Translations under genes and position numbers: made by a program
The notes under the pieces: model-generated
Database searches by the model: none
What the model was told of the DNA's origin: nothing
What the model saw: the letters and a program-made list of their open reading frames with translations, nothing else
From: Treponema sp. CETP13
GTDB taxonomy: Bacteria; Spirochaetota; Spirochaetia; Treponematales; Treponemataceae
Direction: 5' to 3'
Length of the DNA stretch: 64,000 nucleotides
NCBI GenBank assembly: GCA_001885315.1
Contig: MLPZ01000007.1
Location: 84,186 to 148,185 of the forward strand
Shown: in pieces, positions 35,264 through 53,743 of the stretch
How the letters are laid out: the number at the start of each line of letters is the position of its first letter
How positions within the stretch are numbered: position 1 is the stretch's first letter

Positions 35264-36616
35264 ATGAAATTTAATAGTAATAAAATACATTTTTTATTTT
35301 TTTTTGTTCTCTTTTTAGCGTGCCCTGTTTTACTTTTTGCATTGCCTTTTTCGGATATTCCAGAAAGTGCTGATTGCCGTTTGCAATTAGTAAGTGATTG
35401 GTTTCAAAAAGATATTACTGAGGTTTTAAATAAACCCTCTGAATTTATAGAAAATGAATGTGGCCAAAAATTCCTTGTACGTGTTGAGGATATTTCAACA
35501 GATACTCTACTAAAAGCAAAAATAATTATTGCTCCGTGTGTGCAAATGGAAGGGAAAATTATTGAAGAGGACGATACACAATCTGTTTCGTTTGAAACCT
35601 GGCCTGAAAAAGGTGCGGGATCATGGGTTTTATATCGTGGCGAAGATTCCAATCAAGATACTATACGAATATATTTTCAAAATAATGAACAAGTATATTT
35701 GCAAATAAAACCCTTTGGAACAAGGACGCATGCTGAATTAGTAATATTTGGTACTAAGGTTGTTACGAATGTGACTGTCGGGTTGCCATTTGAAAATATG
35801 TATACATTATCGCTCCATCAAATATATGAAATTACGAAGAAATTAATACCTTGGCAGTATGTTTTTATCCCCGATGGTAGATATGAGGGAAATGAACAGA
35901 TGATTAGTATTATTCGAAAAGATCTTCCGTCTATTATATATACAAAAGATGCAGCTTATGATGAAAAAGGTAATCCTGTATTTGCCTCAACTGGTAAAGT
36001 TCGAGAAGTTACTGATAATGAAAAAGTTCTTACACTAGGATCTTTAGGCTTTGTAAAATGGATTGCCGACGGGTTGATTGAGCCAATTATTGGATCGGGG
36101 TGTTTAATAGAACCGTTGCATACTCCAACAGTTATTCCTAATAATGGAAGTTTAGCTGCAACAGTTTTACAAGATTTTAACATATATGAAAGTTTAGATT
36201 GGATACGAAATCTTGCAGCAGCAACTGTTTCTGCCCGGTATAATAATACAAGCCTACGATACGACAATTCTGGGGTTGGAGTTAATAAATTGGAAATGCC
36301 AAATTGCCCCTATATATCAAAAACTGGATATAAAACAGATTGTATCACGGCTCTTTTATATGTACTCGCTACAACAGAACCCGATCTGTTCTATTTTGGG
36401 GCTATAGCAGAAAAAATGCCTGGCAATAAAGATTTACATATTTATAAAAAGGCCGTTGCTATATTTCCTTATTTTACAGTTGATGGTAAATTTAATGTGG
36501 TTGTATTTGAAAACGGAATGGAATATACTTTAGTTCAATTTATAAAAGATAATCCAAGTACGTATATTGATTTAGTGCGTGTAAAATCGAGTCTTAAATT
36601 TATCCCGAGGTTATAA
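35264..36616 (+). CDS. Exported protein of unknown function, first gene of the envelope operon
   Basis: 450 aa with a signal peptide (hydrophobic residues ~8-25, ending LLFALPFSD) and no lipobox, so periplasmic or outer-membrane associated. I recognise no domain. Seven or more Cys residues are present in the mature part (for example DCRLQL, ECGQKF, CPYISKTGYKTDC), unusual for a spirochaete periplasmic protein and compatible with disulfides. A GATAAT hexamer lies 6 nt before the ATG and no SD is seen. Its stop overlaps the TPR gene start by 1 nt, and the run continues through the ExbB/ExbD/TonB genes, so a role in that envelope machine is likely by association. Confidence 0.7.
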   Translation: MKFNSNKIHFLFFFVLFLACPVLLFALPFSDIPESADCRLQLVSDWFQKDITEVLNKPSEFIENECGQKFLVRVEDISTDTLLKAKIIIAPCVQMEGKIIEEDDTQSVSFETWPEKGAGSWVLYRGEDSNQDTIRIYFQNNEQVYLQIKPFGTRTHAELVIFGTKVVTNVTVGLPFENMYTLSLHQIYEITKKLIPWQYVFIPDGRYEGNEQMISIIRKDLPSIIYTKDAAYDEKGNPVFASTGKVREVTDNEKVLTLGSLGFVKWIADGLIEPIIGSGCLIEPLHTPTVIPNNGSLAATVLQDFNIYESLDWIRNLAAATVSARYNNTSLRYDNSGVGVNKLEMPNCPYISKTGYKTDCITALLYVLATTEPDLFYFGAIAEKMPGNKDLHIYKKAVAIFPYFTVDGKFNVVVFENGMEYTLVQFIKDNPSTYIDLVRVKSSLKFIPRL

Positions 36617-39531
36617 TGCTAAAATGCAAAAGATTACTAATTTTTGTTATTGTTGCTGTACTTATTGTTCCCACACATGTTTTTGCTAGTAAAACTCAAA
36701 CAGAAGGCTATTTGTATGCCGAAATCCAATCAGAGCTAGTTTCTAAAGCTTATCCTGCTGTTCTTGCAACGTCAAAAATATTTATAGAAAAATATTCTCA
36801 GTCTGTTTATCTTGATGATATTCAACTTTGTTATGGGGAAGCTCTATTTTTTACCGGGAGTGCAACGAAGGCTCGGGATGTTTTATTAAAATCAGAAAAG
36901 TCACAAGATCCCAAGATACAAAGTGCTTCTCAGTATTGGCTAGGTCGTATTGCATTTGCAAAAAATGATTTTAACACAGCGGTAAAATATTTTTATTTAG
37001 CTCTAGATGTATTGCAAGACTCAAATAATATGTTATTAAAAAAAAGTTCGTGGTTTTATACTGGCAAGTCATTATATGAACTCAACGATTTTGAACAAGT
37101 AGAGAAAGTTTTACGTTATTATTTAGCTACCTTTCCTCCAGATGATAATTATCAAGAAATTTCACGATTGTTGTGTGCAACATATTTTAAAAGCGAAGAG
37201 TATGAAAATCTGATTGATTTTTATAATGCAATTCCTTTAGAAAGTTTTTCGAAAGATTCACAAGAAATATGTAAAATTTATGCTGCAGGTGCATATGCAG
37301 CAATAGAAAAATACCAAGATGCATATGCATTATATACTGAAATTTTATCATCTTCAAACAAACAACGTAGTCTTGCTGCTTTGCAACGTGCGTATAGTAT
37401 AGTGAATAAAAATGATGTTGAGAGTGAACAAGAGTTACTTGACCTTGCTACTTCGTATTTGGGAAATGAGTCAGATACGTTGCAAAATTTATGGGTTCGT
37501 TCTGGGATAACAACTTTTCAAGAAGGTGATTTTGATACAGCCTTACAATATTTTGAACGTTCCGAAAAAATAGGAGCAACGACTGGTGAATTATGGGATT
37601 TATGTACACTCTATCAAGCAAAGATTTACGCATACCAAAATGATGCATCAAAAGCCTTAGCTTTTTTACAAGAACGATATAATGATGCTAGTTCATTTGC
37701 TCCATGGTTTTTGACTGCACAAGCTGCATTAAGTGCACAAATTGGTGATTGGTTGACTTGTGAAGCGCAAGCGACAGATGCTATAAAAAAATTAGAAACT
37801 TCTAGTCTTAATAACAAAGCCTTATATGATGAAGCTTTGTATTGGCGAGGAGGGGCTCTTTATGCTCAAAGTAAAATACCTGATGCTGTAACAACTTTAT
37901 CTAAAGCTTCAAATAGCGAAACAGGTGGGGCGACAACCTTTTTATATGCACAAGCTCTTTTTAGTGCAGGAAATCGCAAAAAGGCATTAGAGCTTTTTAC
38001 GACTTTTTTCCCAAACAATAAAGATACTGCAATAGCTCAATTAAAAACTGGTGATTATTTAAGTTCTTGGAAAACAGCCATAAATGCTGATGACCAATAT
38101 ATAAGTGGATTAGATGCATATTGTTTTTCAGATTGGGAGAGAGCTTCATATGCTTTTCAACAAGCATTATTAAAAGAAAAAGTGCCTACAAACAAACTTT
38201 CTTGGGCAAATTACTATTATGCCGATTCTTTATATCATCAAGGAGAATATGCAAAATCGCTTGAGCGTTTTGAGCTATTTTTAAAATCTTGGGCTACTCA
38301 TATAAAAGCTTGGGATGCAAAAATGAATGTAGCAAAATGTGCAATTCAAATTGGTGGAGATAAAATGGGGAATGTAGCAATGACTTCTGTTGCAGAAGCC
38401 TCTACAATCGCGACTACCAATGAACAAAAGATAGAAAGTGCAATTTTAGCAGCTAGTTTATATACAGACGCTCATCGATATGGTGATGCAGAACAGGTTT
38501 TACTCCCTCTTGCAAAATCCTATTCACCAGATTCTGTTCCTGTTCGATTTCAGCTAGCAAACATTTATGCTGCAGAGGGAAAATTAAATGCTGCCGATGC
38601 TGAGTTAGAAAAAATATCCGAGGTATTTAAGACGAGTGATTTTGCTCGAGAAGCTGCGTATAGACGAGGAGAAATCTTTTATCGAGCTGGCGAGTATGAA
38701 GTTGCTGCCCAAAAGTTTGCTGATTTTAGACAAAACTGGCAGAGTGGGAACTTTTCAGATGCGGCTTTATTTTTCGGTGCTGAAAGTTTAGCAAAAAGCG
38801 GTAGTACTGGAAGGGCTATCCTTTTATATAATGATGAAATAGAACGCTATCCTAATGGGACATACACTTTTGCTTCTATGAGTGCACTTATAAAATTATA
38901 TCGTGAAAATGAAGAATATCAAGAAGCTCTGCACATGGCTAATAGAATGTTGGAGGAATTTGATGACCAAGCCCGAAATGCAGGAGTAGTGGCAGAAGTT
39001 TCGGAGCTACAACTGTTAGTAAATGGTGGGGATGAGCAATCGGCACAATTATATGCAACGTGGACAAAAAATAAAAAAAATCAAACATCCACAGGTCGTG
39101 AAGCTGGATTCAATTTAGCAATAAAATATATTTCAATGCCAGAAAAAAAAGCTGAGGGTATTCAAATGCTCAAAAGCTTAGCTGCAAGTTTAGAATCGTT
39201 AGGGGCAGCAGATACTGTAGAATCTAGTTTATCAACACAGCAAAAAGCTGATATAAACTTATATGCTCGGGTACTCGAAGAACAAGCCAAACTAGAAAGA
39301 GATACTGGTTCTGCTATAAATGCTGCAAATATATATATGAAAGTAGCAGAACGCTATTCTGTGACAGAGTATGTAGATTCTCGCGAAAAAGCAGCACGGG
39401 CTATGTACGGGGCAGTAGAAGCTTTTGATATAGGACGTAAATATGCTGACTCTAGAGCAGTATATAATACAATGCAAGATTCTTTTGCAGATTCCGAATG
39501 GACTGCAAAAGCTAAGAAGATAATTGAGTAA
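36616..39531 (+). CDS. Periplasmic TPR protein of the Ton-like operon
   Basis: 971 aa with a signal peptide (MLKCKRLLIFVIVAVLIVP, ending VFAS). Almost the whole mature protein is helical repeats of the TPR/SEL kind (ASQYWLGRIAFAKNDFNTAV, AYRRGEIFYRAGEYEVAAQK), as in YbgF/CpoB and BamD-like proteins that bridge the Tol/Ton and outer-membrane machinery. It has no catalytic motif. It overlaps the previous gene by 1 nt and precedes the barrel-like protein by 21 nt. I infer a large periplasmic scaffold linking the energy-transducing complex and the outer-membrane protein. Confidence 0.8.
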   Translation: MLKCKRLLIFVIVAVLIVPTHVFASKTQTEGYLYAEIQSELVSKAYPAVLATSKIFIEKYSQSVYLDDIQLCYGEALFFTGSATKARDVLLKSEKSQDPKIQSASQYWLGRIAFAKNDFNTAVKYFYLALDVLQDSNNMLLKKSSWFYTGKSLYELNDFEQVEKVLRYYLATFPPDDNYQEISRLLCATYFKSEEYENLIDFYNAIPLESFSKDSQEICKIYAAGAYAAIEKYQDAYALYTEILSSSNKQRSLAALQRAYSIVNKNDVESEQELLDLATSYLGNESDTLQNLWVRSGITTFQEGDFDTALQYFERSEKIGATTGELWDLCTLYQAKIYAYQNDASKALAFLQERYNDASSFAPWFLTAQAALSAQIGDWLTCEAQATDAIKKLETSSLNNKALYDEALYWRGGALYAQSKIPDAVTTLSKASNSETGGATTFLYAQALFSAGNRKKALELFTTFFPNNKDTAIAQLKTGDYLSSWKTAINADDQYISGLDAYCFSDWERASYAFQQALLKEKVPTNKLSWANYYYADSLYHQGEYAKSLERFELFLKSWATHIKAWDAKMNVAKCAIQIGGDKMGNVAMTSVAEASTIATTNEQKIESAILAASLYTDAHRYGDAEQVLLPLAKSYSPDSVPVRFQLANIYAAEGKLNAADAELEKISEVFKTSDFAREAAYRRGEIFYRAGEYEVAAQKFADFRQNWQSGNFSDAALFFGAESLAKSGSTGRAILLYNDEIERYPNGTYTFASMSALIKLYRENEEYQEALHMANRMLEEFDDQARNAGVVAEVSELQLLVNGGDEQSAQLYATWTKNKKNQTSTGREAGFNLAIKYISMPEKKAEGIQMLKSLAASLESLGAADTVESSLSTQQKADINLYARVLEEQAKLERDTGSAINAANIYMKVAERYSVTEYVDSREKAARAMYGAVEAFDIGRKYADSRAVYNTMQDSFADSEWTAKAKKIIE

Positions 39532-39552
39532 CCTCCAAATAGGAAAGGATTT

Positions 39553-41226
39553 ATGAAAAAAATAAAACAACATTTATATAAGATAAGTTTTACATTTTTA
39601 GTTTTTTGTTTGATGTCAAATGCATATGTAGCAGGAGAAGACAGTGTTGCTATTTCCGATGATACTTTAGACTCAGCCATAACAGATGATCAAATTGCTT
39701 TGCCAGATGTAAGTACAGAATTAAAATTAGATAGACAAAACATTGAAGATGCAGCAATTCCAGATTTTACCCAGTTTTTACCTCAAACAGATACTGCTTT
39801 TTCCGGTTTGCCAGTTCTTAGCGATGGAACAGATGAAAAAATAGCACTTGAAGCGATAGTCCAAGAATCTAATAATAATGACAATTCTCCTATCTACCTA
39901 GAAGGCATAATAGGAGGTGGATATCCTGGAATATTTATTGGCAATTTTAATGTATCGCAAACTATCGGTGATAATCCTTTCTCTTTGAGCTTTTTACATG
40001 AAGCAATTAATGGGTATGGAAGTCATAATGCTTCTGAAGGGTATAACAATTCAGAAACTTCCCTTTCTGGTGTAAAAACTTTTACACTGTCAGATAAACT
40101 TGCAATAAACGGGACTGCATTGTATAACACTTCAACTTGGGGGCTACAAAGTAAAAGCTCCTACTTTTATAATATGTCCCGCCAATATATAGGTGGGACA
40201 GGTACTATGTCATACCAGATAAATGATGTAGTTCAGCTTCAAACAACTCTCGATGCTTCTTATGATAATCGTTTTGCAGGTTTTACTGTTGAAGTCCCAG
40301 ATACCGTCCTCACAGGACCCAATTTATTTACAGTAGCTCCTAAGCTTAATGCTAGTATAGAAAAGGGTAATTTTTTAATTGATTTTTCTGGCTCTTATAA
40401 GTTTGCATCGATGGACTCTAGTGTAGATAGCAACGATGATATTATGCATCATGCAGATATAAATGCAGATGTGTCGTATTTATTTAATGATCTATTTACT
40501 TTAGTCGGTGGTGTTGGAGGTTCCTTTACAGACCCTGCTATCTCATCTGTTGTTGTTCCTTTTTATATTGGAGGAATAATAGAAAAACCTTTTTTAACAC
40601 TTACAGCAAAAGGTGGATTACATAGTACTCAAACTGATATTGCTGCATTGCAAGAATTATATCCTTATGTTCAGTTTGAAAAAGTTCCAACAGAAGAGTC
40701 TAAATGGTTTGGCCTACTAGATGCACAAATCCCATTTATGCAAAAATATGTTACAATCATTAATGTAGAATTTAATAAAACTGCATTTGGAAATGAAACA
40801 TTATGGCCTGATTATACAACACAAAATGCTAGTGGTTTATATGATAGCGCTTATTATGATGTTACTGAATTAATAACAAAGATGGCGTTTTCTGCACAGT
40901 TTAACAAAATAGGGAGTACTATTGGCTGGGAAGGCAATTGGTTAGATAAAATTGAAGGAACTAATACCCATGAAGTATATACAGATATTTCTTATACTAC
41001 AGCAGATAAAAAAGGATCGTTACAGTTAGAGTTAGTACAATCTATAATTTCTTTTGAGGTTCCTCAAATAAGTTTTTCTTCATTTTACCAGTTTGCAAAA
41101 CCTTTTCAGTTAGAGTTATCTCTCGAAGATATTGTTTACCTTTTTACTGGGGATGATCGACTCATTGCAGGTGAGTATTGTGATCAAGGTGGTTCTGTTA
41201 GTCTAAAAATGAAGCTTTTTTTCTAA
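39553..41226 (+). CDS. Putative outer-membrane beta-barrel protein
   Basis: 557 aa with a signal peptide (~1-28, ending AYVAGEDS). After ~100 polar residues the sequence shows alternating hydrophobic strands with Gly/aromatic caps (GIIGGGYPGIFIGNFNVSQT, GNFLIDFSGSYKFAS, KGSLQLELVQSIISFEV) and ends in GGSVSLKMKLFF; a terminal Phe preceded by alternating residues is the classical outer-membrane insertion signal. No TonB box, plug domain or known porin family is recognised. SD AGGAAAGG is strong. Its position immediately before exbB-exbD-tonB suggests it is the client of that energy system. The barrel call rests on sequence pattern only. Confidence 0.65.
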   Translation: MKKIKQHLYKISFTFLVFCLMSNAYVAGEDSVAISDDTLDSAITDDQIALPDVSTELKLDRQNIEDAAIPDFTQFLPQTDTAFSGLPVLSDGTDEKIALEAIVQESNNNDNSPIYLEGIIGGGYPGIFIGNFNVSQTIGDNPFSLSFLHEAINGYGSHNASEGYNNSETSLSGVKTFTLSDKLAINGTALYNTSTWGLQSKSSYFYNMSRQYIGGTGTMSYQINDVVQLQTTLDASYDNRFAGFTVEVPDTVLTGPNLFTVAPKLNASIEKGNFLIDFSGSYKFASMDSSVDSNDDIMHHADINADVSYLFNDLFTLVGGVGGSFTDPAISSVVVPFYIGGIIEKPFLTLTAKGGLHSTQTDIAALQELYPYVQFEKVPTEESKWFGLLDAQIPFMQKYVTIINVEFNKTAFGNETLWPDYTTQNASGLYDSAYYDVTELITKMAFSAQFNKIGSTIGWEGNWLDKIEGTNTHEVYTDISYTTADKKGSLQLELVQSIISFEVPQISFSSFYQFAKPFQLELSLEDIVYLFTGDDRLIAGEYCDQGGSVSLKMKLFF

Positions 41227-41313
41227 TTATTCAAAACTGTACTAGATGAGTCGTTACTTTTATTTGCGATATTTGTTATTTTTAGTATAGCTATTTAAAA
41301 TAAAGGAGTTTTT

Positions 41314-41931
41314 ATGTTTAATTTATTGTCAATTGGTGGACTTATTATGCTTGTAATAATAGCTTGTGCACTTATTGCTACATTTATTATTTTTGAAAGA
41401 AGTTTATATTACTCAAACCTAAAAAAGAAAGATATACTTATTTTTCAACATGCCAGAGCTTATGCAAAAGTAAAGCAATATGATAAAGCAGCTATGTACT
41501 GCGAAGCACAAAATACACCAACTGGAAGTGTCTTGGCAAAAGTTTTTAAGACTCGATTTATGGAATCAGAAGATGCAAAAGAAGCGGTATTAGCTGAAAG
41601 CAGTCGTCAACTTCCTAAGTTGGAGCATTTATTAACTTCTTTAGGAACAATTGCAAATATTTCCACGTTATTAGGGCTTTTAGGTACCGTAACTGGTAAT
41701 ATAGAAGCTTTTGGAGTTCTTGGTTCTGCTGGCTCTACTGGAGATCCATCTATGCTAGCTGGAGCAATCGCACAAGCGTTAATTACAACAGCTGCAGGGC
41801 TTGTAATTTCAATACCTTCAATTGTTTTTTATAATCATTTTACAAACCATGTAAATAAAACAGTTAATAATCTTGAAAATGAGATTACCGATCTTATGTT
41901 GCTTATTCGTGGTAAGGAATCTGATGTATGA
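41314..41931 (+). CDS. exbB: ExbB/TolQ/MotA-family proton-channel subunit
   Basis: 205 aa inner-membrane protein with three transmembrane helices (residues ~5-27, ~105-130, ~145-170) and the family pattern LTSLGTIANISTLLGLLGTVTGNIEAF, followed by AGAIAQALITTAAGLVISIPSIVFYN. With ExbD it forms the proton-driven stator that energises a TonB/TolA-like protein. SD AAAGGAG is ideal. The stop overlaps the exbD start by 4 nt. Confidence 0.92.
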   Translation: MFNLLSIGGLIMLVIIACALIATFIIFERSLYYSNLKKKDILIFQHARAYAKVKQYDKAAMYCEAQNTPTGSVLAKVFKTRFMESEDAKEAVLAESSRQLPKLEHLLTSLGTIANISTLLGLLGTVTGNIEAFGVLGSAGSTGDPSMLAGAIAQALITTAAGLVISIPSIVFYNHFTNHVNKTVNNLENEITDLMLLIRGKESDV

Positions 41932-42356
41932 AACTAAGGCGTGCAAAAAAACCAAAGGCCATAGTTGATCTCATTCCAATGATAGATGTTGTATTCCAGT
42001 TAATTTTATTTTTTTTGGTTTCTACAACTTTTTCGCTCATGCCAGGAATTACGTTAAATTTGCCTGTTTCCGAAACGGCAGAATCAACTGTAACACAAGG
42101 AATAACCATAACAGCTTCTGCTGAAGGGGATATATGGTTTAATGATACACAAGTAACAATGGATGAACTTTCCGTTGCACTTGATACCTATGAGGAAAAT
42201 GGAGAACCTATTACTGCAGAAGAAAAACTTGAGTTTCCTGTTAGTTTAGAAGCAGATTCGCTTGTGACAAATGGAACGATTGTCAAGATTTTTGATGTTT
42301 TGAGAATGAATGGTTTTTCTGCAGTAAATCTTCGAACAACAAAAAATGATAAATAA
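41928..42356 (+). CDS. exbD: ExbD/TolR-family stator subunit
   Basis: 142 aa with one N-terminal transmembrane helix; IDLIPMIDVVFQLILFFLVSTTF includes the essential membrane Asp of the ExbD/TolR family that carries the protons. The periplasmic part (~45-142) is the ExbD fold (GITITASAEGDIWFNDT, a C-terminal AVNLRT). It overlaps exbB by 4 nt and the TonB-like gene by 11 nt. Confidence 0.92.
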   Translation: MKLRRAKKPKAIVDLIPMIDVVFQLILFFLVSTTFSLMPGITLNLPVSETAESTVTQGITITASAEGDIWFNDTQVTMDELSVALDTYEENGEPITAEEKLEFPVSLEADSLVTNGTIVKIFDVLRMNGFSAVNLRTTKNDK

Positions 42357-43371
42357 AATAGAAAAACAGGCCGGATTAGCAACGTTTCTTTTATGGCTGG
42401 TAATTATTACAGTTGTTGGAATAGCGGTGCTAAAAGAGCAAAATAAAACAAAGTATAATAGTATCTCGATTCGGTTAGAAGTTCCGAGTATTCCTGAACA
42501 AAAAAAATTAGAAACTACTCCTGTCCTAAAAGAAAATACCTCTTCTAATACGCAGTCAATACCAATCGAAAAGTCAGCTCCGGCTGCTGCTCCAGCAAAC
42601 ACACAAGCACCTAAACAAATAGAGACTGTTCCAGCTAAAACTCAACCAAAGACAAAAGCTGTTCCGTCTCAAACTAAAGCAACAGAAAAAGCTCCTGTTC
42701 CTCAAAAATTGCAAAAAAGTATGGAAGAATTAATTGCAGAGCAAAATGCAGCAAGTAACAAAAAAAGTGTTGACGAGGTTGATTGGGATAGCTTGTTTGA
42801 AGATTCTAGTGTTGTTGCTACATCTTCTAATAGCAACGAACCGAGTTCTACTTCTACAGTAATAGACGATTCAGAAGCGCTTTCTGGTTCTGTCGCAGCT
42901 GTTTCTAAAGATTCAAGTGCAAAGGCTTCTTCAAATAAAAGAACTAATGAGGATGTTTCTATATCGACCTCGAGTGTACTCAATACGATAAGTAGTGCAA
43001 AATTTTCTGATTCAGGAACTGGGAGTGGAGTCACTTCAACTGTAAGTGTTGAAACTAATTCAGGAAGTTCTGGAGGAACTTCAATTAAAATGAGTGATGG
43101 AAGCATGCGTAAATTATTAGATCCTCTAAAACCTGTTTTAACAATCTCGCCTGAAAATGAAAAACTTATAGATTCGTCTATTACTGTTAGCATTCAATTT
43201 ACTGTCAAAGCTGATGGAAATGTTTTACCTACAACAATAAAATTTACTCCTTCTGGTCTTTTGCCTCTAGCAGTTCAATCAGATTTAGGCTTACAAATTG
43301 CAAAATGGAGATTTGAAAAAGGTTCAGGTGATGGACAGGCAGAGTTTAATTATAGTATAAATAAAAAATGA
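42346..43371 (+). CDS. TonB-like energy-transducing protein
   Basis: 341 aa. One N-terminal transmembrane helix (~11-28); a long periplasmic spacer (~40-260) rich in Pro, Lys, Ser, Thr and Ala; and a C-terminal ~80-residue domain with the TonB pattern (SIQFTVKADGNVLPTTIKF, a short helix LGLQIAKWRFE, then a final strand). This is the architecture of TonB/TolA proteins, which reach across the periplasm and pull on outer-membrane partners using the ExbB-ExbD motor. The start overlaps exbD and no SD is present, so translation is probably coupled. Whether it is closer to TonB or to TolA is uncertain. Confidence 0.8.
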   Translation: MINKIEKQAGLATFLLWLVIITVVGIAVLKEQNKTKYNSISIRLEVPSIPEQKKLETTPVLKENTSSNTQSIPIEKSAPAAAPANTQAPKQIETVPAKTQPKTKAVPSQTKATEKAPVPQKLQKSMEELIAEQNAASNKKSVDEVDWDSLFEDSSVVATSSNSNEPSSTSTVIDDSEALSGSVAAVSKDSSAKASSNKRTNEDVSISTSSVLNTISSAKFSDSGTGSGVTSTVSVETNSGSSGGTSIKMSDGSMRKLLDPLKPVLTISPENEKLIDSSITVSIQFTVKADGNVLPTTIKFTPSGLLPLAVQSDLGLQIAKWRFEKGSGDGQAEFNYSINKK

Positions 43372-44039
43372 TGAAAGAAATAAAAGCTGTTGCCTTTGAT
43401 ATTGATGGTACATTATATCCTGATTATAAATTGAATTTCCTTGTGATTCCTCATTTCTTAGCCCATATATATTTTTTTATATGTTATGATATTGTACGAC
43501 ACCAATTAAGAAAACATGCCCAATTACAAGATCTTCTCGTTTTTCAGTCACAATTACTTGCAAAAAAACTACATACAACACCTAAACGAGCATATGAAAA
43601 AACAAATGAAATTATTTATAAAGGTTTACGGCCTTATTTTAAAATCATAAAACCTTTTAAATATGTTACAGAGACCTTTGATGCATTTAAAGAGGCTGGC
43701 CTTAAGCTTGGGGTACTTTCTGATTTTCCAACAGAACAAAAAGGTGATATTTGGGGACTCGCACAAAAATGTGACGTTGTTATCGGTACAGAAGAAATTG
43801 GAGCGCTTAAACCTTCTCGATATACATTTGGAGTGTTTGCCGAAAAATTAGGGTGTAAGCCTCAGGAAGTCTTGTATGTTGGAAATAGTAAAAAAAATGA
43901 TATAAAAGGTGCGAAGGCTGCTGGTATGAAAACAGCTTTTGTAATGTCGCCTTGGCGACGTCTAATTCATAAGAAGCTTTCAATTGCAGACATTTCCTTT
44001 AGTAGCTATCGCCAATTGCAAAAAATTGTGTTAGACTAA
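43368..44039 (+). CDS. HAD-family hydrolase
   Basis: 223 aa. Motif I DIDGTLYP (nucleophile Asp), motif II Ser in GVLSDFPTEQ, motif III Lys in LKPSRYTFGVF, and motif IV GNSKKNDIKGAKAAGM identify a haloacid dehalogenase-type phosphatase with a helical cap between residues ~20 and 100. Such enzymes dephosphorylate small metabolites in the cytoplasm. It overlaps the TonB-like gene by 4 nt, so it is co-translated with the envelope operon, though its substrate and its link to that machinery are unknown. Confidence 0.88.
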   Translation: MMKEIKAVAFDIDGTLYPDYKLNFLVIPHFLAHIYFFICYDIVRHQLRKHAQLQDLLVFQSQLLAKKLHTTPKRAYEKTNEIIYKGLRPYFKIIKPFKYVTETFDAFKEAGLKLGVLSDFPTEQKGDIWGLAQKCDVVIGTEEIGALKPSRYTFGVFAEKLGCKPQEVLYVGNSKKNDIKGAKAAGMKTAFVMSPWRRLIHKKLSIADISFSSYRQLQKIVLD

Positions 44040-44069: not shown

Positions 44070-47000
44070 ATGTTATTGAATATTCTCACAATGACGGTGT
44101 GCTTAACGCTTGTTTTGATTTCTTATCAAATAAATAAGCAGAATAGCTCGCTAGGAAAAGTAAAAAAATTTACTGATAAAGTGTTTGCTGATTTTGACGC
44201 ATATTTTAAAGATCAAACACAAAAGACACAAAATGCAGGAGTTGAACTTGGCGTAAAACAGAGTCAAGCAGTAGCTGCAGTAAAAAGGCTTGAAAATAAT
44301 ATTGAGCTTTTTGATGAACATAGCAATGACATAAATCAACGTATGCGCGTCATTGATGAAATGGGAAAAAGCGCTGAAAAATACGAAAAAAAAATAAAAG
44401 ATCTTATGGAGATGACTGATAGGGTTGAAGAAAACCTTAATCGTATTAGAGTAGCTTCTAAATCATTCAATAAAATATCGCATACAATTGAAGATCATGA
44501 CGTTTATTTACAAAAACTTGATATGCAAATTCCTCAAATTGTACAAAAATTTGCAGTAGAAAATCACAAATCTTTAGATGCTCTTGGTGAAGAGTACAAA
44601 TCTGAGTTAGCAAAAACTAAGGAAGATTTTCTTGATTCAGCAAATACTTCTAATTTACAAATACAAGAGCTAACGGATCAATCTATTCAGAAGATAAATT
44701 TGTTGGTTGAAAATGCAACTGGAAATATTACACAATTAGTCGATAATTCGACGCAGGATTATAGCCAGTTAGCGGCAAATGCAGTCCAAGAATTTTATCA
44801 AGTAACAGACCTTTCTACCCAAACCTATAAACAATTAACAGAAGAATGTAAACAAGAATATAAACAGTTGTCTGCTGGTTCTATAGAAAATTATAAGAAC
44901 CAAATTAGTGGCTCAGAAGATTCCTATTTGCAATTAGCTGATAATGCTAGTAAAGATTTTATCAAACTTACTAATGATTCGAAAGAAGCATTTACAAAAT
45001 TAACTTCGGGAGTTGAACAAAAAATTTCACAAGTTGTGAATAATTCAACTAAAAAAATTACTGAGGTTGCTGTAAAAGCTAAAGAAAATTTCGAAAAATT
45101 AACTGCTGAAGCCGTGTCGGATATTAAACAACTTGGCGAGAATACAACTAATAATGTTTCAGCCTTAACAACAGGGATAGCAGATAGTATTAAAGAAGCT
45201 GCTGGAGAAGCAACAAAAGATTTTAGTCAGTTAACTTCTGAGGCTACTAATAGTTTTAAGAATTTAACAACTAACTCAACTCAAGATTTGAATGTTTTAA
45301 TTACAGCCTCTACTCAATCATTCAATAAATTAGCTGAACGTTCAACAGAAAATCTTAACCTTCTGGTAAGTGAGTCAACCGAAAATATTAACCAACTTGC
45401 AACTGAGTTTAAAGAATTAACTTCTACAAGAATTGCGAATGTAGAGCAGCTTGCAAGTAGTTCGACACAAAATTTTACAGAATTAGTAGCGCAATCAACA
45501 GAAAACATACAAGAGTTAGCACAAGGTTCTGAAGATCACTACAAACAGTTGGTTTCAGGAACAACAGATAAAGTACAAGAAATAGCCGATACTGCAACAG
45601 CAAATATAGAGCAGCTTGCAAGTAGTTCAACTGAAAGTCTTGTACATCTTACAGTAGAATCGACAGAGAGTATTAAGCAATTAACTTTGGATTCTACAAA
45701 TTCTTTTGGACAATTTATTGATGCTTCGAAACAAGATTATAACAATTTAACGAAAGCTTCTGTAGAGAAATATACAATTCTGGCAGATGATTATATTCAA
45801 AAAGTTTCTAATGTATCAGAAGGAATTTTTCAAGATATTACTAATTTGACAGAGGATTCTTTAAATGAAATATCGCAAATTTCATCTGATTCTACAGAAT
45901 CGTATTACAGATTAACAACTGATTCTGTAAAAGAATATAAAAATTTAGCGGCAGAATCGACAGAACAGTTTAAGACAAGTGCAGCTGAAAAAACTGATAT
46001 GTTAAACAAACTAGCTTTTGAGGCAACAAACCACTTTAGTACTTTATCTTCAGAAAGAATAGAACAGTTTAGTTCTCTTTGTTCTGAAGGGTTTGATAAG
46101 ATACAAAATCTTGTAACTGACAGTAGTGAAAATTTAAATATGTTTGTATCTCATAATACAGATAAATTTAATGAACTTGTTGATTCCAGTAGTGAAAAAT
46201 TCCATTCCGAGGTTACTGGTAAAATACAAGAAATTAATGATTTGGTTACAAATGGCTCAAATCAACTAAAGACTCTTCGTGATGTGGCAGTTACTAAAAA
46301 CCAAGAAATTTTACAAGAGATAGATGAGGTTTATAAAAAATCTAAAGATTTTGCTTCTGAAAAAGCAAAAAAATTAGAAGCAGATGTATTTAACAGTTTT
46401 AAAGCAAAAACTGATGAGAGAATTACAATTTATGAAGCTGAACTTCAATCGAGTACAGATACTATTAATGAGTTATTAGAAAATGGTTTAGCAAAGATTA
46501 GGACTGATGTTGAACAGAGTGTGACTGATTTACAAGCAAAACAAGATGTGATTTCTGAACAAAGTGGAAGTCTTGTCGTTGCTTTAGATGCTCGATTCAA
46601 GGAAATAAAAAATACATTTGAACAAAAAATTGAGGCTATGAATAATGATCTTGATTTTGCAAAAAATGAGATAGGAAGTAGAAATACCGAAAAAGCAGAT
46701 AAATTCTTTACTGAAATGGATAAGAGGTTAGATGCTTATAAGACTGACATGGAGTATCGTTTCGAGCGTATAGAAAAGGTAGGTGAGGATATAGATTTAT
46801 TAGAGAGCAATTTTAAGTCTATAATGAAAGTTGCCGAGCAAAATGTATCGGAATCTTTTAACCAGTATAAAATTGGACAAGAGAGCAAAGAGCAAGAATT
46901 CTCCGAAAAATTACAGATCTCTTTTGATCAACTTACTCAAAAAATGTCTACAATAGAAACAGATTTAAATGAGTTAAAACAACATGCGTATGATAATGTA

Positions 47001-48884
47001 TCTGAAAAATTACAGATTTTCCAAGATGACTTTTTTAAAGATTTAAATGTTCGTGGTGAAAAGATAAATGATTCTTTAAGTGAGTGGCAAAATAATCTTG
47101 ATGCCAAAATGGTTGCAGTTACGCATGATTTTGATGACAAAACAACTGCATTGGAAAATAGCTATACCATAGAAATGAAGAAAAGATTAACTTCTTTACG
47201 TGATACATTAGCCGAAAATTCTTCTAAGATAGAAGAAGCTTTTACGCATAAAGAAACAGAAATGGAAGAAAGGTTAAATTCTTTTGATAGCCAAGTGCGT
47301 TCTTTTATGGAGCAAGAAAGAGCTCAAGTAGAAGAGGTTAGAACAGCTGCAAATGAAAAAGTGGTTAAGGAGCTTGAAGCTTATTCAGATTCCCTTCAGC
47401 AACAATTTAAGAAGTATGAACAGAATATTAATAACATGCTTGATGATTTAACCCAAGCTGTAACAGCAAATAAAGAGGATGCAGCCAGATCCATAGCAAC
47501 AACTAAAAATGATATGAATACATGGAGCGAACGTCTTGCTGGCCAATTTGAAGAAGCGAGATTAATGTATAATTCTAGATTAGAGACGCTTAATGAATCT
47601 GCAAATGAAAACATGGCTCAGATACAAGAAACGTTTAAATCTGAAGTCCAGAATTATGTAGAAAAATCTCTCGAAGAAACAGAGACTGTTAATAATAATG
47701 TTGCAGAATTAAAAGAAAGAATTGATTCTGCTCTTAAAGGATATGAGATTCGCTCTGCTGAAATGATTTCTGAATTTAAGAAATCATATGAAGCTATGAG
47801 TAAAAGTTCCCAAAAGATTATTCGAGATGAAAATGCTGATGCTGATAAACGTGTTCGAGAAGTTAGAGCGATTGTGCAAGAAATAGAAGAAAAAACAGAA
47901 GATGCTCAACAAAAAATGCTGCTTAAAATTCAAACTGAAGCTAATAATCTCAAAGTTAATATTGATGATATAGATAAACAGGTAAAAGAATTTTTGACTC
48001 AAACTCAACTTTTTGAGAAAGCAGAAAGTATGCGTAAAAGTTTGGAAGAGCAAATGAAAATACTTGATGTAAACATGAGTAAATATGATAATACTGAAAA
48101 AATCGCTGCAGAGCTTAAAGATCAGTATGATCATTTATTACAAATGGATGAAGATATTAATCATAAAATACAAAAATATATGAACGAACAAGTACGTGTT
48201 GAAAATATTGAATCTAAGTATAATAGACTAATATCTCTTTCTGCTTCTGTAGAACAAAAATTGTCGGAGTTGACAAGTACGAACGATGATTTGCAGGTTT
48301 TTCAAGTAGAAGTACGTAAATTTCAGGATACCTTAGATGAAATTAGTAATAGATATGACAGGCTTGAAAAAAAGAATGCTGTCTTGGAAGGTACAATAGC
48401 AGGGGTAGATAAGTCATTTGAAAATCTCGAAGCTCTCGAAAAACGACTTGTTGAATGTGATGAAAAAACGTATGGAATGCCAGAGAAGGTTAGGGATTTA
48501 GAAGCTAATCTTAATAAGCTTACAGAACATAGTGCTAAACTAAATGAAGTTATGGAAAAAATAGGTTCTTTGGATGATGTACTAGGTGAAACGGATAAGA
48601 AAATAGAAGCTGTCTCTAAAAATCGAGAATGGATTGCAAATACAGAAAAACGTCTTAACGCTATGACAAAAGAAGCAACTGAACAAGTAAGATTGTATGG
48701 GGCTCTAGTTAAAGATAGACGTAATAAAAAAGATGATGTTGGGGCTCCTCCTCCGGCAGTACGTGAAAATGTTATAAAATTAGCACATACTGGTTGGAAA
48801 ATGCAGGAAATTGCAGATAGTTTGCATCTGACACTTGGAGAAGTTGAGTTAATACTTAATTTTTATGCAAGTAATGATAAGTAG
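44070..48884 (+). CDS. Giant membrane-anchored hendecad/heptad coiled-coil protein with C-terminal HTH-like motif
   Basis: 1604 aa. One hydrophobic helix at residues ~2-19 (ILTMTVCLTLVLISYQ) anchors it. Residues ~193-738 are about 49 consecutive 11-residue units with the pattern x-S/A-T-x-D/E/N-F/I/Y-x-x-L-T/A/V-x (for example STQSFNKLAER, STENINQLATE), broken once by a 7-residue insert at 446-452. Eleven-residue periodicity predicts a nearly straight or right-handed coiled coil. From ~740 to ~1540 it continues as Lys/Glu/Gln-rich heptad coil. The last ~45 residues (VIKLAHTGWKMQEIADSLHL, then GEVELILNFY) look like a helix-turn-helix, similar to the C-terminus of DUF6115-like proteins. SD GGTGG precedes the start. 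It is the last gene of the operon. Function unknown. Confidence 0.85.
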   Translation: MLLNILTMTVCLTLVLISYQINKQNSSLGKVKKFTDKVFADFDAYFKDQTQKTQNAGVELGVKQSQAVAAVKRLENNIELFDEHSNDINQRMRVIDEMGKSAEKYEKKIKDLMEMTDRVEENLNRIRVASKSFNKISHTIEDHDVYLQKLDMQIPQIVQKFAVENHKSLDALGEEYKSELAKTKEDFLDSANTSNLQIQELTDQSIQKINLLVENATGNITQLVDNSTQDYSQLAANAVQEFYQVTDLSTQTYKQLTEECKQEYKQLSAGSIENYKNQISGSEDSYLQLADNASKDFIKLTNDSKEAFTKLTSGVEQKISQVVNNSTKKITEVAVKAKENFEKLTAEAVSDIKQLGENTTNNVSALTTGIADSIKEAAGEATKDFSQLTSEATNSFKNLTTNSTQDLNVLITASTQSFNKLAERSTENLNLLVSESTENINQLATEFKELTSTRIANVEQLASSSTQNFTELVAQSTENIQELAQGSEDHYKQLVSGTTDKVQEIADTATANIEQLASSSTESLVHLTVESTESIKQLTLDSTNSFGQFIDASKQDYNNLTKASVEKYTILADDYIQKVSNVSEGIFQDITNLTEDSLNEISQISSDSTESYYRLTTDSVKEYKNLAAESTEQFKTSAAEKTDMLNKLAFEATNHFSTLSSERIEQFSSLCSEGFDKIQNLVTDSSENLNMFVSHNTDKFNELVDSSSEKFHSEVTGKIQEINDLVTNGSNQLKTLRDVAVTKNQEILQEIDEVYKKSKDFASEKAKKLEADVFNSFKAKTDERITIYEAELQSSTDTINELLENGLAKIRTDVEQSVTDLQAKQDVISEQSGSLVVALDARFKEIKNTFEQKIEAMNNDLDFAKNEIGSRNTEKADKFFTEMDKRLDAYKTDMEYRFERIEKVGEDIDLLESNFKSIMKVAEQNVSESFNQYKIGQESKEQEFSEKLQISFDQLTQKMSTIETDLNELKQHAYDNVSEKLQIFQDDFFKDLNVRGEKINDSLSEWQNNLDAKMVAVTHDFDDKTTALENSYTIEMKKRLTSLRDTLAENSSKIEEAFTHKETEMEERLNSFDSQVRSFMEQERAQVEEVRTAANEKVVKELEAYSDSLQQQFKKYEQNINNMLDDLTQAVTANKEDAARSIATTKNDMNTWSERLAGQFEEARLMYNSRLETLNESANENMAQIQETFKSEVQNYVEKSLEETETVNNNVAELKERIDSALKGYEIRSAEMISEFKKSYEAMSKSSQKIIRDENADADKRVREVRAIVQEIEEKTEDAQQKMLLKIQTEANNLKVNIDDIDKQVKEFLTQTQLFEKAESMRKSLEEQMKILDVNMSKYDNTEKIAAELKDQYDHLLQMDEDINHKIQKYMNEQVRVENIESKYNRLISLSASVEQKLSELTSTNDDLQVFQVEVRKFQDTLDEISNRYDRLEKKNAVLEGTIAGVDKSFENLEALEKRLVECDEKTYGMPEKVRDLEANLNKLTEHSAKLNEVMEKIGSLDDVLGETDKKIEAVSKNREWIANTEKRLNAMTKEATEQVRLYGALVKDRRNKKDDVGAPPPAVRENVIKLAHTGWKMQEIADSLHLTLGEVELILNFYASNDK

Positions 48885-49982: not shown

Positions 49983-51596
49983 TCAATCATTATAGCATAA
50001 ATTGAGGGTAGGGTCAAAGCTCAGATTCATGACAAAATTGAGAAAATTTGAAGGTTCTTTAAAGTATAGGCTTTTTAAGGGATGAATATCTAAGACATTA
50101 GAATACCATCCTCCGAGTATATCTGTATCGATGCAATCTGTTGCTACAGGGTGAGAAATTGGTACGATTATGCCACTGTCAATTAAAACTTGTTCAGCTT
50201 GTGATAATTTTTTATACCGTGCAGTGGTATCTGTAATGGCAGAGGCTTCTGTAATAAGTTTTTCAAATTCCTCATTTGTCCAATTTGTTTCTCTAAGAGT
50301 TGAGTCTTTTCTAAATAGTTCAAGAAATGCAAGAGGATCTGCAAAATCTCCTATCCATGTATAGGTCAACATATCAGAATCAATAGAATCGAAAGAGTCT
50401 AAATAAGATTCTGGATCACAAAGTTCTATTTCGACAGTAACGCCAATTTTAGCAAGTCCTTCTTTTATAATGTTTGCCTGTTGTTCTGAGTGTTCATAAT
50501 TTGGAATTGCTAATTTTAATGTCAGATTGTCTTCTGCAGAATACCCAGCATTAAGCATCATTTCACTTGCTAAATCAGGATCATAGTCAGTTAATCCTAT
50601 GATGGATGGATAATTTGTGAGAGGAAGAATTAGTGTTGTTGCTAAAACAATATTACCAGATCGTAATTTATTCCAAGGAATAGCGGTTAAAATAGCGTTT
50701 CGTAATTCTGGATCATTCCATGGTTCTCTGTTATCTCTAAAAAACATAAATTCAGTACCATATTGAGCAGATATAATTAATTGTTGTTGATTATATAGTA
50801 AGTCTGTAGAAAAAATACTACTTAACCATTGGGCTTCTCCAGTATTTAATGCCCACGTAGCTGCAGCAGCATCTTCAGTACCTCTAAATTCAATGCGTTC
50901 TATATTTACATTTTTTGCATCATGGTAATTTTCATTTTTTACAAGAACTGTTTTTGTTTTTGTTTCTGATTCAAGAACATATGCACCACTGTAAACATTG
51001 GGTGTTTGAGACATAACGCTAAATGCATGATGAGCTAAAATACTAGAAAAATGGGCAGTAGGTTCTGTTAATGTTATAACTAAGGTAGTGTCATTTCTTG
51101 CATGTATTTTTACTGTTTCAGCAGGGGCCTCTCCTTTTCTATAGGCAGCTGCTCCTTCTACACAATCAAGTAATGACGCAAAAGGAGCTTTTGTTTCTGG
51201 AGCAATTTCAGTTAAAAGAGAGCGTTTTACATCATTTGCTGTTATAGGCGTTCCATCGCTAAAAGTAATATCATCTGGTAAGTAAAAAGTCCAGATTTTA
51301 CTGTTGCGAGATATCTTAAAAGATTTTGCAATTCCTGTTTCTGGTTCTGCGGTAGCGGCATTAAAAGTAAATAAGCCTTCATATAAACCATTTAGAACTT
51401 GGGCATCAGAACTATAATTAGCAGTATGAGGATCTAGATTATAATATCGTGGATATCCTATGATAACTAATGTTTTTTGAGGCTCAGATTCTGTTATTGA
51501 AAGATCTGGTTCATCTGTAATTTCTATGTTTTGTGCTGTACAAATTAACATAGAAATAGAAAGTAGTACAAAAAGAGTTGTTAATTTTTTATTCAT
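49983..51596 (-). CDS. Oligopeptide-binding protein (SBP_bac_5 family)
   Basis: 537 aa, the usual size of OppA/DppA-type binding proteins. Signal peptide at ~1-20 with Cys19 (ISMLICTAQ), which may be a permissive spirochaetal lipobox. Family signatures: YPRYYNLDPHTANYSSD near residue 55, YEGLFTF, DDITFSDGTPITANDVKRSL and a C-terminal YKKLSQAEQVLIDSG. It captures peptides (or another ligand of this broad family) for an ABC importer whose permease and ATPase genes are not in the window. It overlaps the upstream gene by 8 nt, so the two are probably coupled; that partner is uncharacterised. Confidence 0.9.
   Translation of the reverse strand: MNKKLTTLFVLLSISMLICTAQNIEITDEPDLSITESEPQKTLVIIGYPRYYNLDPHTANYSSDAQVLNGLYEGLFTFNAATAEPETGIAKSFKISRNSKIWTFYLPDDITFSDGTPITANDVKRSLLTEIAPETKAPFASLLDCVEGAAAYRKGEAPAETVKIHARNDTTLVITLTEPTAHFSSILAHHAFSVMSQTPNVYSGAYVLESETKTKTVLVKNENYHDAKNVNIERIEFRGTEDAAAATWALNTGEAQWLSSIFSTDLLYNQQQLIISAQYGTEFMFFRDNREPWNDPELRNAILTAIPWNKLRSGNIVLATTLILPLTNYPSIIGLTDYDPDLASEMMLNAGYSAEDNLTLKLAIPNYEHSEQQANIIKEGLAKIGVTVEIELCDPESYLDSFDSIDSDMLTYTWIGDFADPLAFLELFRKDSTLRETNWTNEEFEKLITEASAITDTTARYKKLSQAEQVLIDSGIIVPISHPVATDCIDTDILGGWYSNVLDIHPLKSLYFKEPSNFLNFVMNLSFDPTLNLCYND
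49989..50017 (-). promoter_or_regulatory. Promoter of carD-ispF (leaderless)
   Basis: Minus-strand TTGACC (50012-50017), 17-nt spacer, consensus TATAAT (49989-49994), 8 nt before the carD ATG at 49980. It is embedded in the last codons of the peptide-binding gene. Confidence 0.75.
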
Positions 51597-52998
51597 CTAT
51601 TATCCCGAGTCGTTTCATTTGTGCTTGTTCTTCGATATAAGAAGTATATTCAGCTTTGCGTTGTTTTGTTTTAACTAGAGTATTTTTCATAGAAGTAATT
51701 TCTATAGACCAGTTTTTCAATTTTTCTCGTGTAAGAGGTCGTACAGATACCTTAAAAAAATCAGTTAAAGCTTCAAGTATAACAATAATATCAGTACATT
51801 CTGCTATTTGTTTTGTAATAAAATTTAAAATATCTTCTTCTGATTGAGATTCAATTTTCATAAATCCGGGAGTGTTCCGGACTGAAAAAGAAGAATAAGT
51901 GTTAGCACGTTTTGTAAGTGCAATTACAAGAGAAGAGAAATTGATTAATTTGTGTTTTTTTAAGTGGGTGAGAGGGTCTTCTATAGAAATTCTATATTCA
52001 ACTTTAGGTTTTTCAATATGAAAAGCTTTTCGCCATAAGGAAGAAAGTTTATCCCAAAAACCTTTAGTTTCATTCTCTAATAGCATTTGGTTTTCATTCA
52101 TTTTTTTGAGTATTTCTTCTAATTGGTTTGAAAGAGATCCTAGGGCTCGTACAGTGTTCATTAAGAGTTCTTTTGTATTAACTTGTTTAGTTTTTTTCTC
52201 TGTTTGTTTTACTTTAACTGAAAGTGAATCTAACAAAGTTCTTCTTTTAATTTCTTTTGTAGCAGAAAATTCTTCTTCAGCAATTTCAATTATAAGTTCC
52301 TTATAAAAAGGTTTTTTACCCATTGCGGAAGGGAACGCTTTTTTAATTTGGGAAAAACCGACAGTTTCATTTGGAGCTTTGTTTGAGTAGTTTGGATTTT
52401 TTTCAAGGGCTTTTCTAACTGATGCTTTGTAAACTTGTTTTTGGAATGCTAAAAGTTCTTTGAGTTGAATATTTATTAGTGCAATAGTTTTTTTTGCCAC
52501 TGCGGTAAAGTCATTTAGTACTTTTATAGACATTTGATCAGAACCATTACGAATAACTGCAAATAATTCTGCTAGAGCTCTTGTATTAGGATGTGTAGAA
52601 ACTGGTTGAAGTGAATTCCATTTTATATAGTTATTTAATCGGGATAATGTTTTTATTCTTTCCATCGGAAAATTATTAATTGAAAATTTACAATAATTGC
52701 ACAAATAATCGAGAGATGTTTCGTAATCAGAAAGTCTTTTTCCCATAATAGAGGCTTTATCATTGTCTAGAAAATCTGAGTCGTCTGGTACAAAAATATC
52801 TGAAACATTTCGATCTTTTTTATAAGGATCTTCTATGATTAGTCCCTTTTTTACGAGCATGTTAAACATATTTTTAATTAAGGCATGATAATTTCTGTAT
52901 TCTGTGAGTATTTCATTAAGTCCAATGGTATTGTACCATTGAGCTTTTGTATCAATCTTGTTGTATAATGTCTTATTAAAATTAAAATCTTCTGGCAT
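51589..52998 (-). CDS. Uncharacterised soluble, largely helical protein
   Basis: 469 aa from the ATG at 52998 (MPEDFNFNKTLYNK). An in-frame start at 53178 would overlap the upstream barrel-like gene by more than 140 nt and translates to hydrophobic non-conserved residues, so I reject it. The protein is charged, mostly helical and has a Lys-rich coiled segment at roughly 235-350. No signal peptide, membrane helix or known motif is seen. It lies between an exported barrel-like gene and the oligopeptide-binding gene, overlapping the latter by 8 nt. Function not recognised. Confidence 0.65.
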   Translation of the reverse strand: MPEDFNFNKTLYNKIDTKAQWYNTIGLNEILTEYRNYHALIKNMFNMLVKKGLIIEDPYKKDRNVSDIFVPDDSDFLDNDKASIMGKRLSDYETSLDYLCNYCKFSINNFPMERIKTLSRLNNYIKWNSLQPVSTHPNTRALAELFAVIRNGSDQMSIKVLNDFTAVAKKTIALINIQLKELLAFQKQVYKASVRKALEKNPNYSNKAPNETVGFSQIKKAFPSAMGKKPFYKELIIEIAEEEFSATKEIKRRTLLDSLSVKVKQTEKKTKQVNTKELLMNTVRALGSLSNQLEEILKKMNENQMLLENETKGFWDKLSSLWRKAFHIEKPKVEYRISIEDPLTHLKKHKLINFSSLVIALTKRANTYSSFSVRNTPGFMKIESQSEEDILNFITKQIAECTDIIVILEALTDFFKVSVRPLTREKLKNWSIEITSMKNTLVKTKQRKAEYTSYIEEQAQMKRLGIIDE

Positions 52999-53035
52999 AG
53001 TATTATTATCGGATACTCCCTTTATTAGTATAGTG

Positions 53036-53743
53036 TTATTTTCGTTGTGGAAAAAACAAACGGCTAGAAATTGTGCAAATAAAATTTTGTGGAAAGTTAT
53101 TTTCTGTAAAACTTGATATTGGTACATAGGCAGAAGCTGATAAACCAATTTTAATACCTGATTTATAGAAATGATCAAAAGAAATTCTTAAAGATGGATA
53201 GAAAAAATGCAAATCACTGTAAAACCATGAGTTTATATTTGAAATATCTTCAGAAACATCTTCTGTAACGTTATGTGCTGTGTAGGCGTAGCGCAGTAAA
53301 AAAGAAAGCGCTGGCTGAACTCCTAAAATAAAAGATCCAAAAGTAAAATTAAATGTGGCTGGTACATCTAAAAGAATTGCAGGGACAGAAGCTGTTCTGT
53401 TTTCTACGGCTGCAGGAAGTGCTTGTTCATTATCAGAATCCCATAAATAATAGTTTGTAAAAAGGTGTATTTGAGGTGTACATGAAATTAGAGATGTAAT
53501 TGGTATATCATATCCAACGCCTAACGAAAAAAGTATGGGAGAGGGAGCACTATCATCATATGTATTAACTTTTATCAGAGTTCCCATTTGAAAAAATAAA
53601 TTGCTAGATGTATCTATAAGGGGGGTGTCATTTTCAGTATTTTCTATGCTTTCTGTTTCGGGGGAGGTGTTAGTGGGTGTATCTAGAGAAAAAACTACTG
53701 TTATACTAGTGAAAAAGACAATGCAGCATAGAATTTTTTTCAT
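53036..53743 (-). CDS. Exported protein, probable small beta-barrel
   Basis: 235 aa with a signal peptide (MKKILCCIVFFTSITVVFS). The mature part shows alternating hydrophobic strands separated by turns (LFSLGVGYDIPI, FNFTFGSFILGVQPALSF, IGLSASAYVPIS) as in outer-membrane barrels of eight to ten strands, but it ends in LFFPQRK, not in an aromatic. SD GGAG is well placed. It is third in a minus-strand run of lipoprotein/exported genes, 3 nt after the 53747 gene. No family is recognised. Confidence 0.6.
   Translation of the reverse strand: MKKILCCIVFFTSITVVFSLDTPTNTSPETESIENTENDTPLIDTSSNLFFQMGTLIKVNTYDDSAPSPILFSLGVGYDIPITSLISCTPQIHLFTNYYLWDSDNEQALPAAVENRTASVPAILLDVPATFNFTFGSFILGVQPALSFLLRYAYTAHNVTEDVSEDISNINSWFYSDLHFFYPSLRISFDHFYKSGIKIGLSASAYVPISSFTENNFPQNFICTISSRLFFPQRK

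Follow-up and report, generated by a model that had tools for sequence, protein, structure and literature searches.

A predicted membrane-anchored SpiroCoCo coiled-coil protein of Treponema sp. CETP13 and its possible tie to the flagellar or cell-body machinery

What might a bacterium do with a protein that, drawn out as one straight helix, would measure ~230 nm (0.15 nm per residue over 1604 residues)? The question is raised by a gene within a 64,000-nucleotide stretch of Treponema sp. CETP13 (assembly GCA_001885315.1, contig MLPZ01000007.1, positions 84,186 to 148,185 of the forward strand), referred to here in its entirety as the window and numbered from its first letter. A preliminary description of this stretch, made from the sequence alone, had proposed a 1604-residue protein whose straight helix would exceed 200 nm, and both statements hold. 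The open reading frame (ORF) occurs once in the 2.54-Mb genome, is free of internal stops, and has a ribosome-site-like GGGTGG 5' of its ATG. Its product belongs to SpiroCoCo, a family already named in NCBIfam, within which it carries a private block of hendecads. Our analysis suggests that the protein is a membrane-anchored cytoplasmic tether, whose tip and left-handed coil would bind not DNA but another protein, one belonging to the flagellar or cell-body machinery, a reading to which we assign a probability of about 0.45. The features on which this proposal draws are as follows.

44070 to 48884, plus strand: SpiroCoCo-family coiled-coil protein, 1604 residues (ORF reading; NCBIfam SpiroCoCo_N and SpiroCoCo_C matches).
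44070 to 44135, plus strand: predicted transmembrane helix (TM), residues 1-22 (hydrophobicity; K23, K30, K32, K33 and K37 directly after).
44082 to 44702, plus strand: SpiroCoCo_N domain, residues 5-211, comprising the TM and a heptad-type coil (NF047514, 141 bits against a cut-off of 75).
44646 to 46283, plus strand: 49 hendecads, residues 193-738, S/T/N/Q-rich, net charge -40, no proline (periodicity and register analysis).
45405 to 45425, plus strand: 7-residue register slip, residues 446-452, between the hendecad blocks (register phases 198 and 458).
46284 to 47639, plus strand: near-straight coil, residues 739-1190, 3.62-3.67 residues per turn (windowed periodicity).
47832 to 48704, plus strand: left-handed coil, residues 1255-1545, period 3.455 (periodicity; helical in the AlphaFold2 model).
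47925 to 48857, plus strand: SpiroCoCo_C domain, residues 1286-1596 (NF047515, 320.5 bits against a cut-off of 125).
48753 to 48875, plus strand: three-helix tip resembling a helix-turn-helix (HTH), residues 1562-1602 (structure model; phylum-wide alignment).

The manner of anchoring is suggested by the first residues of the protein. The best TM-like stretch begins at residue 1 (19-residue mean 2.04), while the best value beyond residue 60 is 0.86, in keeping with the single N-terminal membrane helix first described. Given the lysines that follow this helix, the positive-inside rule places the remainder of the protein in the cytoplasm, and an inner-membrane anchor with a cytoplasmic rod is therefore predicted.

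At the opposite end, the last 58 residues fold, in the structure model, into a three-helix HTH (1562-1574, 1578-1585 and 1589-1602; core predicted local distance difference test score ~95-97), as had been surmised, and G1575, W1576 and I1581 are invariant across 33 phylum-wide sequences. The two profile comparisons that the preliminary description had suggested for this region gave different outcomes: DUF6115 (PF19610) reached its gathering score by a borderline 27.3 bits against 27 over residues 1485-1599 (25.6 for the last 49 residues alone), and sigma-70 region 4 yielded no match at E <= 1 in the 1604-residue protein. Nor did any DNA-binding family exceed its own cut-off in the profile search. 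The hhalign probability is 2.6% to the genome's sigma-28-like (FliA-like) factor versus 92% to a flagellar TM + HTH protein. Moreover, the net charge of the recognition helix is never positive, with a median of -2 in both the 33 sequences (range -4 to 0) and a second set of 41 (range -3 to -1), compared with +1 in the single comparator, the FliA-like factor. Within the Treponema-side set, this helix conserves the motif GEVELIL.

The TM + HTH protein in question is encoded among flagellar genes. At locus L074 (15290-15928; contig C3 of the present genome, G000), a 212-residue TM + HTH protein with a DUF6115 match of 30.8 bits closes an flhA-flhF-...-fapA operon, in which flhA, flhF, fapA and DUF6115 were assigned from matches and the other gene names from our reading of the sequences. 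Against the alignment of such proteins, the SpiroCoCo tip scores an hhalign probability of 97.2% (E 4e-11, 38 columns) and the whole C domain, coil included, 98.1% (E 1e-13, 89 columns). Eight short frames of 150-189 residues in other genomes also match the end of SpiroCoCo_C (E 1e-9 to 1e-7), and 6/8 lie ~6 kb from flhA on the same contig. A survey describes, in part of its text, a flagellar-associated TM + HTH gene that adjoins FapA in a spirochaete superoperon (PMC11607428), which we infer from place and architecture to be the operon gene matched here. The tip can also be compared with FipA (DUF2802), a gamma-proteobacterial partner of FlhF that has a TM-coil-domain plan and whose G110A and L129A variants lost the FlhF interaction, but whose E126A variant did not, according to sections of PMC11620751. 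The 0, +16, +19 spacing of these conserved G, E and L residues recurs as G1575, E1591 and L1594 in the window protein, and all three are invariant in 8/8 sequences of the TM + HTH alignment. DUF2802 (PF10975) scores 15.1 bits against the whole protein and 23.0 bits against the last 49 residues, below its cut-off of 33.5, and the FipA-type position directly downstream of the flhF operon is occupied by the TM + HTH gene. FipA homologues are stated in one passage to be absent from Spirochetes (PMC11620751); the TM + HTH gene and SpiroCoCo might break that rule, although neither is proven to.

To place these proteins in their phylum, we used a phylum sample of 198 spirochaete genomes, a class sample of 158 genomes and 14 control genomes, with our own handles for genomes (G), loci (L), contigs (C), families (f) and genera (g). 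At E <= 0.001 SpiroCoCo_C also rings in 7/14 controls and SpiroCoCo_N in 5/14, none over cut-off, so SpiroCoCo calls rest on NCBIfam cut-offs or E <= 1e-16. The homologue search that had been proposed revealed a spirochaete-wide family: SpiroCoCo_C was detected in 195/198 phylum-sample genomes at E <= 0.001, in 189/198 at E <= 1e-16 and in 134/198 over cut-off. Among the 80 of 198 loci kept for comparison, the named relatives nearest to the window protein are those of Treponema lecithinolyticum (49% across the C domain) and, at 55%, of an uncultured Spirochaetaceae bacterium.

Nearly all sampled genomes without the flagellar export gene flhA have the C domain below its cut-off. FlhF was discarded as a presence marker, since it matches 158/158 genomes and 14/14 controls, evidently through signal recognition particle GTPases too; FlhA at E <= 0.001, which matches 4/14 controls, was used instead. 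In the class sample, FlhA is matched in 134/158 genomes (106 over the FlhA cut-off) and missing from 24, and SpiroCoCo_C exceeds its cut-off in 121/134 FlhA-positive versus 0/24 FlhA-negative genomes (Fisher p 2.4e-19, with no phylogenetic correction). Thirteen of the FlhA-negative genomes, all of family f56, are 95-99% complete. Within family f3, two genomes have both SpiroCoCo_C and FlhA (G025, G028) and three have neither (G031, G034, G037), and on a tree built from rpoB of 30 genomes, 11 of which lack FlhA, two changes are needed, read as two independent losses. FlhA is found in 197/198 genomes of the phylum sample. SpiroCoCo_N persists at E <= 0.001 in 24/24 FlhA-negative genomes, with 8/24 over cut-off, though the weakest of these matches are no proof given the response of the controls at this threshold; the 19 listed frames from these genomes span 195-655 residues. 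Where flagella are lost, the long rod and the terminal coil go with them, the tip less strictly so. We had also considered that loss of the HTH always goes with flagellar loss, an idea that failed because 5/14 of the short forms keep an HTH-like end. The kinship of the tip with the flagellar TM + HTH protein and FipA, taken together with the co-loss with FlhA, points to the flagellar or cell-body machinery.

Between anchor and tip, the rod is built in zones of distinct helical period. Within residues 193-738, hydrophobicity power at 11/3 residues is 67.8, compared with a maximum of 6.1 in 2000 shuffles; position 'a' is I/L/V/F/Y in 49/49 hendecads, 'd' is mostly L, 'e' mostly A/T/V and 'h' mostly S/A. 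The repeats form two register blocks, 193-445 with 23 'a' positions and 453-738 with 26, separated by a register step of 18 residues (11 + 7) that fits the slip at 446-452. The ~49 hendecads, the single slip and the 11-residue peak anticipated by the preliminary description are thereby borne out. Its further account of ~800 residues of heptad coil needs revision, as residues 739 to ~1190 are near-straight and only ~1255-1540 are left-handed, with a period of 3.455 and not 3.5. A 3.5-period zone occupies residues ~23-150 at the N-terminus, so that the coil runs through ~3.50, ~3.64 and ~3.453 residues per turn in its N, middle and C zones, and no proline occurs from residue 156 to 1470. At the DNA level just one pair of 33-bp hendecad units is still recognizable (79% matches), which suggests that the repeats are old. 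A search with residues 187-740, which span the block, scored 7,983 candidates and gave no homologue at E <= 1e-10, and a sequence search of solved structures returned none at E <= 0.01. That the block is a clean insertion is less certain: in G009, residues 1-186 and 730-835 find their matches at adjoining places, but a global alignment spreads the G009 protein's own rod across the block.

The same zones recur throughout the family. Of 121 SpiroCoCo proteins taken, four lack the GW-type end, and the other 117 all have a C-zone period of 3.42-3.49. The 104 of these that also begin with M (or V) and a TM, none longer than 3,005 residues, all have a middle zone of 3.60-3.69, and 98 of the 104 have an N zone of 3.45-3.56. 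The ends are fixed and the middle is variable, with open frames from 448 residues (short divergent forms in f10/g39) to 9,127 (G094). Even within genus g4 frames run from 1,251 to 2,020 residues, a spread that speaks against a precise ruler. The largest frames occur in f19/g48, which is probably Brachyspira. Their middle windows show a wider mix of periods (3.38-3.77), and the TM falls outside the frame as read from the first ATG in G130 and G168. The frames at L054-L057 (G094 and G130), of 9,127 and 7,877 residues, are very large for bacteria and carry net charges of -977 and -805. Tandem SpiroCoCo genes, one long and one short, are found at L060 and L063 (G039 and G053), encoding 2,786 + 1,304 and 3,014 + 1,377 residues.

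From these data, we propose that the N-terminal helix would anchor the SpiroCoCo protein in the inner membrane, and that the near-straight coiled-coil rod would extend into the cytoplasm by up to ~230 nm if fully extended, with a middle length that evolution may change freely. The terminal left-handed coil and HTH-type tip would then dock on a protein, candidate partners being FlhF, the export apparatus, a cytoplasmic filament or another component. Several observations weigh against this proposal. The SpiroCoCo gene lies on contig C6 and the flagellar operon (flhF match) on C3; in some classes one or both of the triad's E and L are replaced (T/T in L066, E/K in L054); and the charge of the whole tip does not discriminate, with medians of 0 and -1 against 0 for the FliA-like region. 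Completeness is <90% for six of the 24 FlhA-negative genomes, and missing sequence may therefore explain some of the absences. In the class sample, 13 genomes that do have FlhA show no SpiroCoCo_C above its cut-off: seven belong to f10/g39 and have a short divergent C domain (59-78 bits), and six have nothing over cut-off (G226, G234, G250, G264, G283, G292). FlhA is likewise present in G024 (f2, 83% complete) beside a SpiroCoCo_C match of just 23 bits, and nine FlhA-bearing genomes of the phylum sample have no C match (G054, G070, G189) or only one at E > 1e-16 (G096, G103, G124, G141, G190, G198). Conversely, G191 (88% complete) has SpiroCoCo_C without an FlhA match, the one such exception; many of the phylum-sample exceptions are incomplete drafts. 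The HTH-like end is kept in five of 14 short SpiroCoCo_N proteins from FlhA-negative genomes (G248, G228, G265, G272, G258; absent in 9/14), with sub-cut-off Pfam scores that are in part to sigma-70 region 4, implying that the tip is not purely flagellar and has at least one non-flagellar partner. Finally, flagella and helical cell shape are confounded in the comparison of FlhA with SpiroCoCo. As a separate observation, L112 (G180) and other FlhA-positive f10/g39 genomes encode SpiroCoCo frames of ~448-509 residues (284 in G254), which are natural minimal forms.

Of the three ideas put forward at the outset, namely a chromosome link, a filament and a motility or polar scaffold, the last, taken as a scaffold for motility or the cell body, has the most support. 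A linker whose HTH tip binds DNA while the rod keeps the nucleoid tied to the membrane would agree with the best fold matches of the modeled tip, which are mostly DNA-binding domains. A shared fold shows no function, however, and the tip profile resembles the flagellar TM + HTH protein and not the FliA-like factor; together with a recognition helix that has no net positive charge in any of the 33 and 41 sequences (even if whole-tip charge is ~0, as in the FliA-like factor), its conserved GEVELIL motif and the lack of any DNA-binding family over cut-off in the profile search, this weakens the chromosome link and makes it unlikely.

Lateral self-assembly of the coils along the membrane, into a cytoplasmic filament or cell-shape scaffold like the bacterial intermediate-filament-like proteins, would account for so long a coil without proline between residues 156 and 1470, and loss of flagella may accompany loss of helical form. 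Spirochaetes are 0.1-0.4 µm wide, so the longest relatives, at ~1.35 µm for 9,127 residues if extended, would be longer than the cell is wide and could fit only lengthwise. The fixed, type-specific N- and C-terminal domains instead suggest two-ended docking, and the sequence gives no sign of assembly, which leaves a filament doubtful. A membrane-lying amphipathic helix of the apolipoprotein or perilipin kind might also produce an 11/3 period, and Pfam Apolipoprotein (PF01442) matches with 71.1 bits, best over residues 1036-1220. This score is below the cut-off of 90, the two hendecad blocks have net charges of -13 and -26 and HELIQUEST-type D values of 0.04 and -0.21, where the usual threshold is near 0.7, and the residues at a/d/e/h are patterned as in the core of a hendecad coiled coil; we regard this explanation as highly improbable. 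The docking tether could be taken further, as a giant counterpart of FipA/SwrB-type flagellar placement factors: a membrane-anchored cable, <0.1 µm to >1 µm long depending on the spirochaete, that would link FlhF-guided basal bodies, or structures in the cytoplasm below them, with a remote site on the cell body. Its length would change through the addition of straight hendecad modules, of which the 49-unit block would be an example. We consider this extension unlikely.

The genomic neighborhood of the gene was also inspected.

43368 to 44039, plus strand: HAD-type hydrolase gene directly upstream of the SpiroCoCo gene (HAD_2 profile match).

The two genes are 30 bp apart, and a HAD tblastn match stands beside SpiroCoCo in 10/17 loci searched, several of the others having little upstream flank. 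The remaining neighbors in these 17 loci include ExbB-like genes (4), IspF (2) and CarD (2), and no flagellar genes were among the recurrent ones. Upstream in the window, 36616-44039 encodes a TPR protein, an unassigned 557-residue protein, ExbB/ExbD/TonB-like genes and the HAD hydrolase, parts of which recur beside SpiroCoCo in several spirochaetes. Elsewhere, 51589-53178 encodes a TP0584 family protein (NCBIfam NF053715, 515.6 bits).

SpiroCoCo_C is present at E <= 1e-16 in 189/198 genomes of the phylum sample, and the proteins that bear it reach 9,127 residues, yet we found no paper on the family in the open-licence PubMed Central literature, nor any report there linking SpiroCoCo to a flagellar TM + HTH protein or to flagellar loss. 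What is new here is the homology of the tip to the flhF-operon TM + HTH protein with its FipA-like G/E/L spacing, the co-loss of SpiroCoCo_C and FlhA while a short N-terminal form persists, and the never-positive recognition helix. If true, the flagellar link would offer a handle on a long-open question, namely the means by which spirochaetes attach their periplasmic flagella to the cell body and determine where these sit and how many there are, and a FipA-like tip would exist in a phylum from which FipA is reported, in the passage cited above, to be missing.

Overall, the window protein resembles other SpiroCoCo members (NF047514/NF047515) in having both domains over cut-off, a TM start, a three-zone coil and a GW-type HTH end, and differs in its 49 S/T/N-rich hendecads without recognizable homologue. 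SwrB of Bacillus subtilis, presumably a DUF6115 member, is small and without a long rod, unlike SpiroCoCo. Like SpiroCoCo as predicted here, it is a single-pass membrane protein, and it acts in flagellar assembly, as described in part of PMC4526659. FipA shares with SpiroCoCo a TM, a C-terminal domain and, by the portions of PMC11620751 cited, the same G/E/L spacing, joined in FipA by a short coil; it differs in that DUF2802 stays below cut-off in SpiroCoCo, whose gene is not by flhF. With the protein of the TM + HTH gene that part of PMC11607428 describes, SpiroCoCo shares an N-terminal TM, a C-terminal HTH and a GE(V/I)EL-type motif (hhalign 97-98%), whereas the flagellar-operon protein is 149-212 residues long, lies in or near the flhA-flhF operon, has GF, GY, GI or GL in place of the SpiroCoCo GW, and possesses no long rod.
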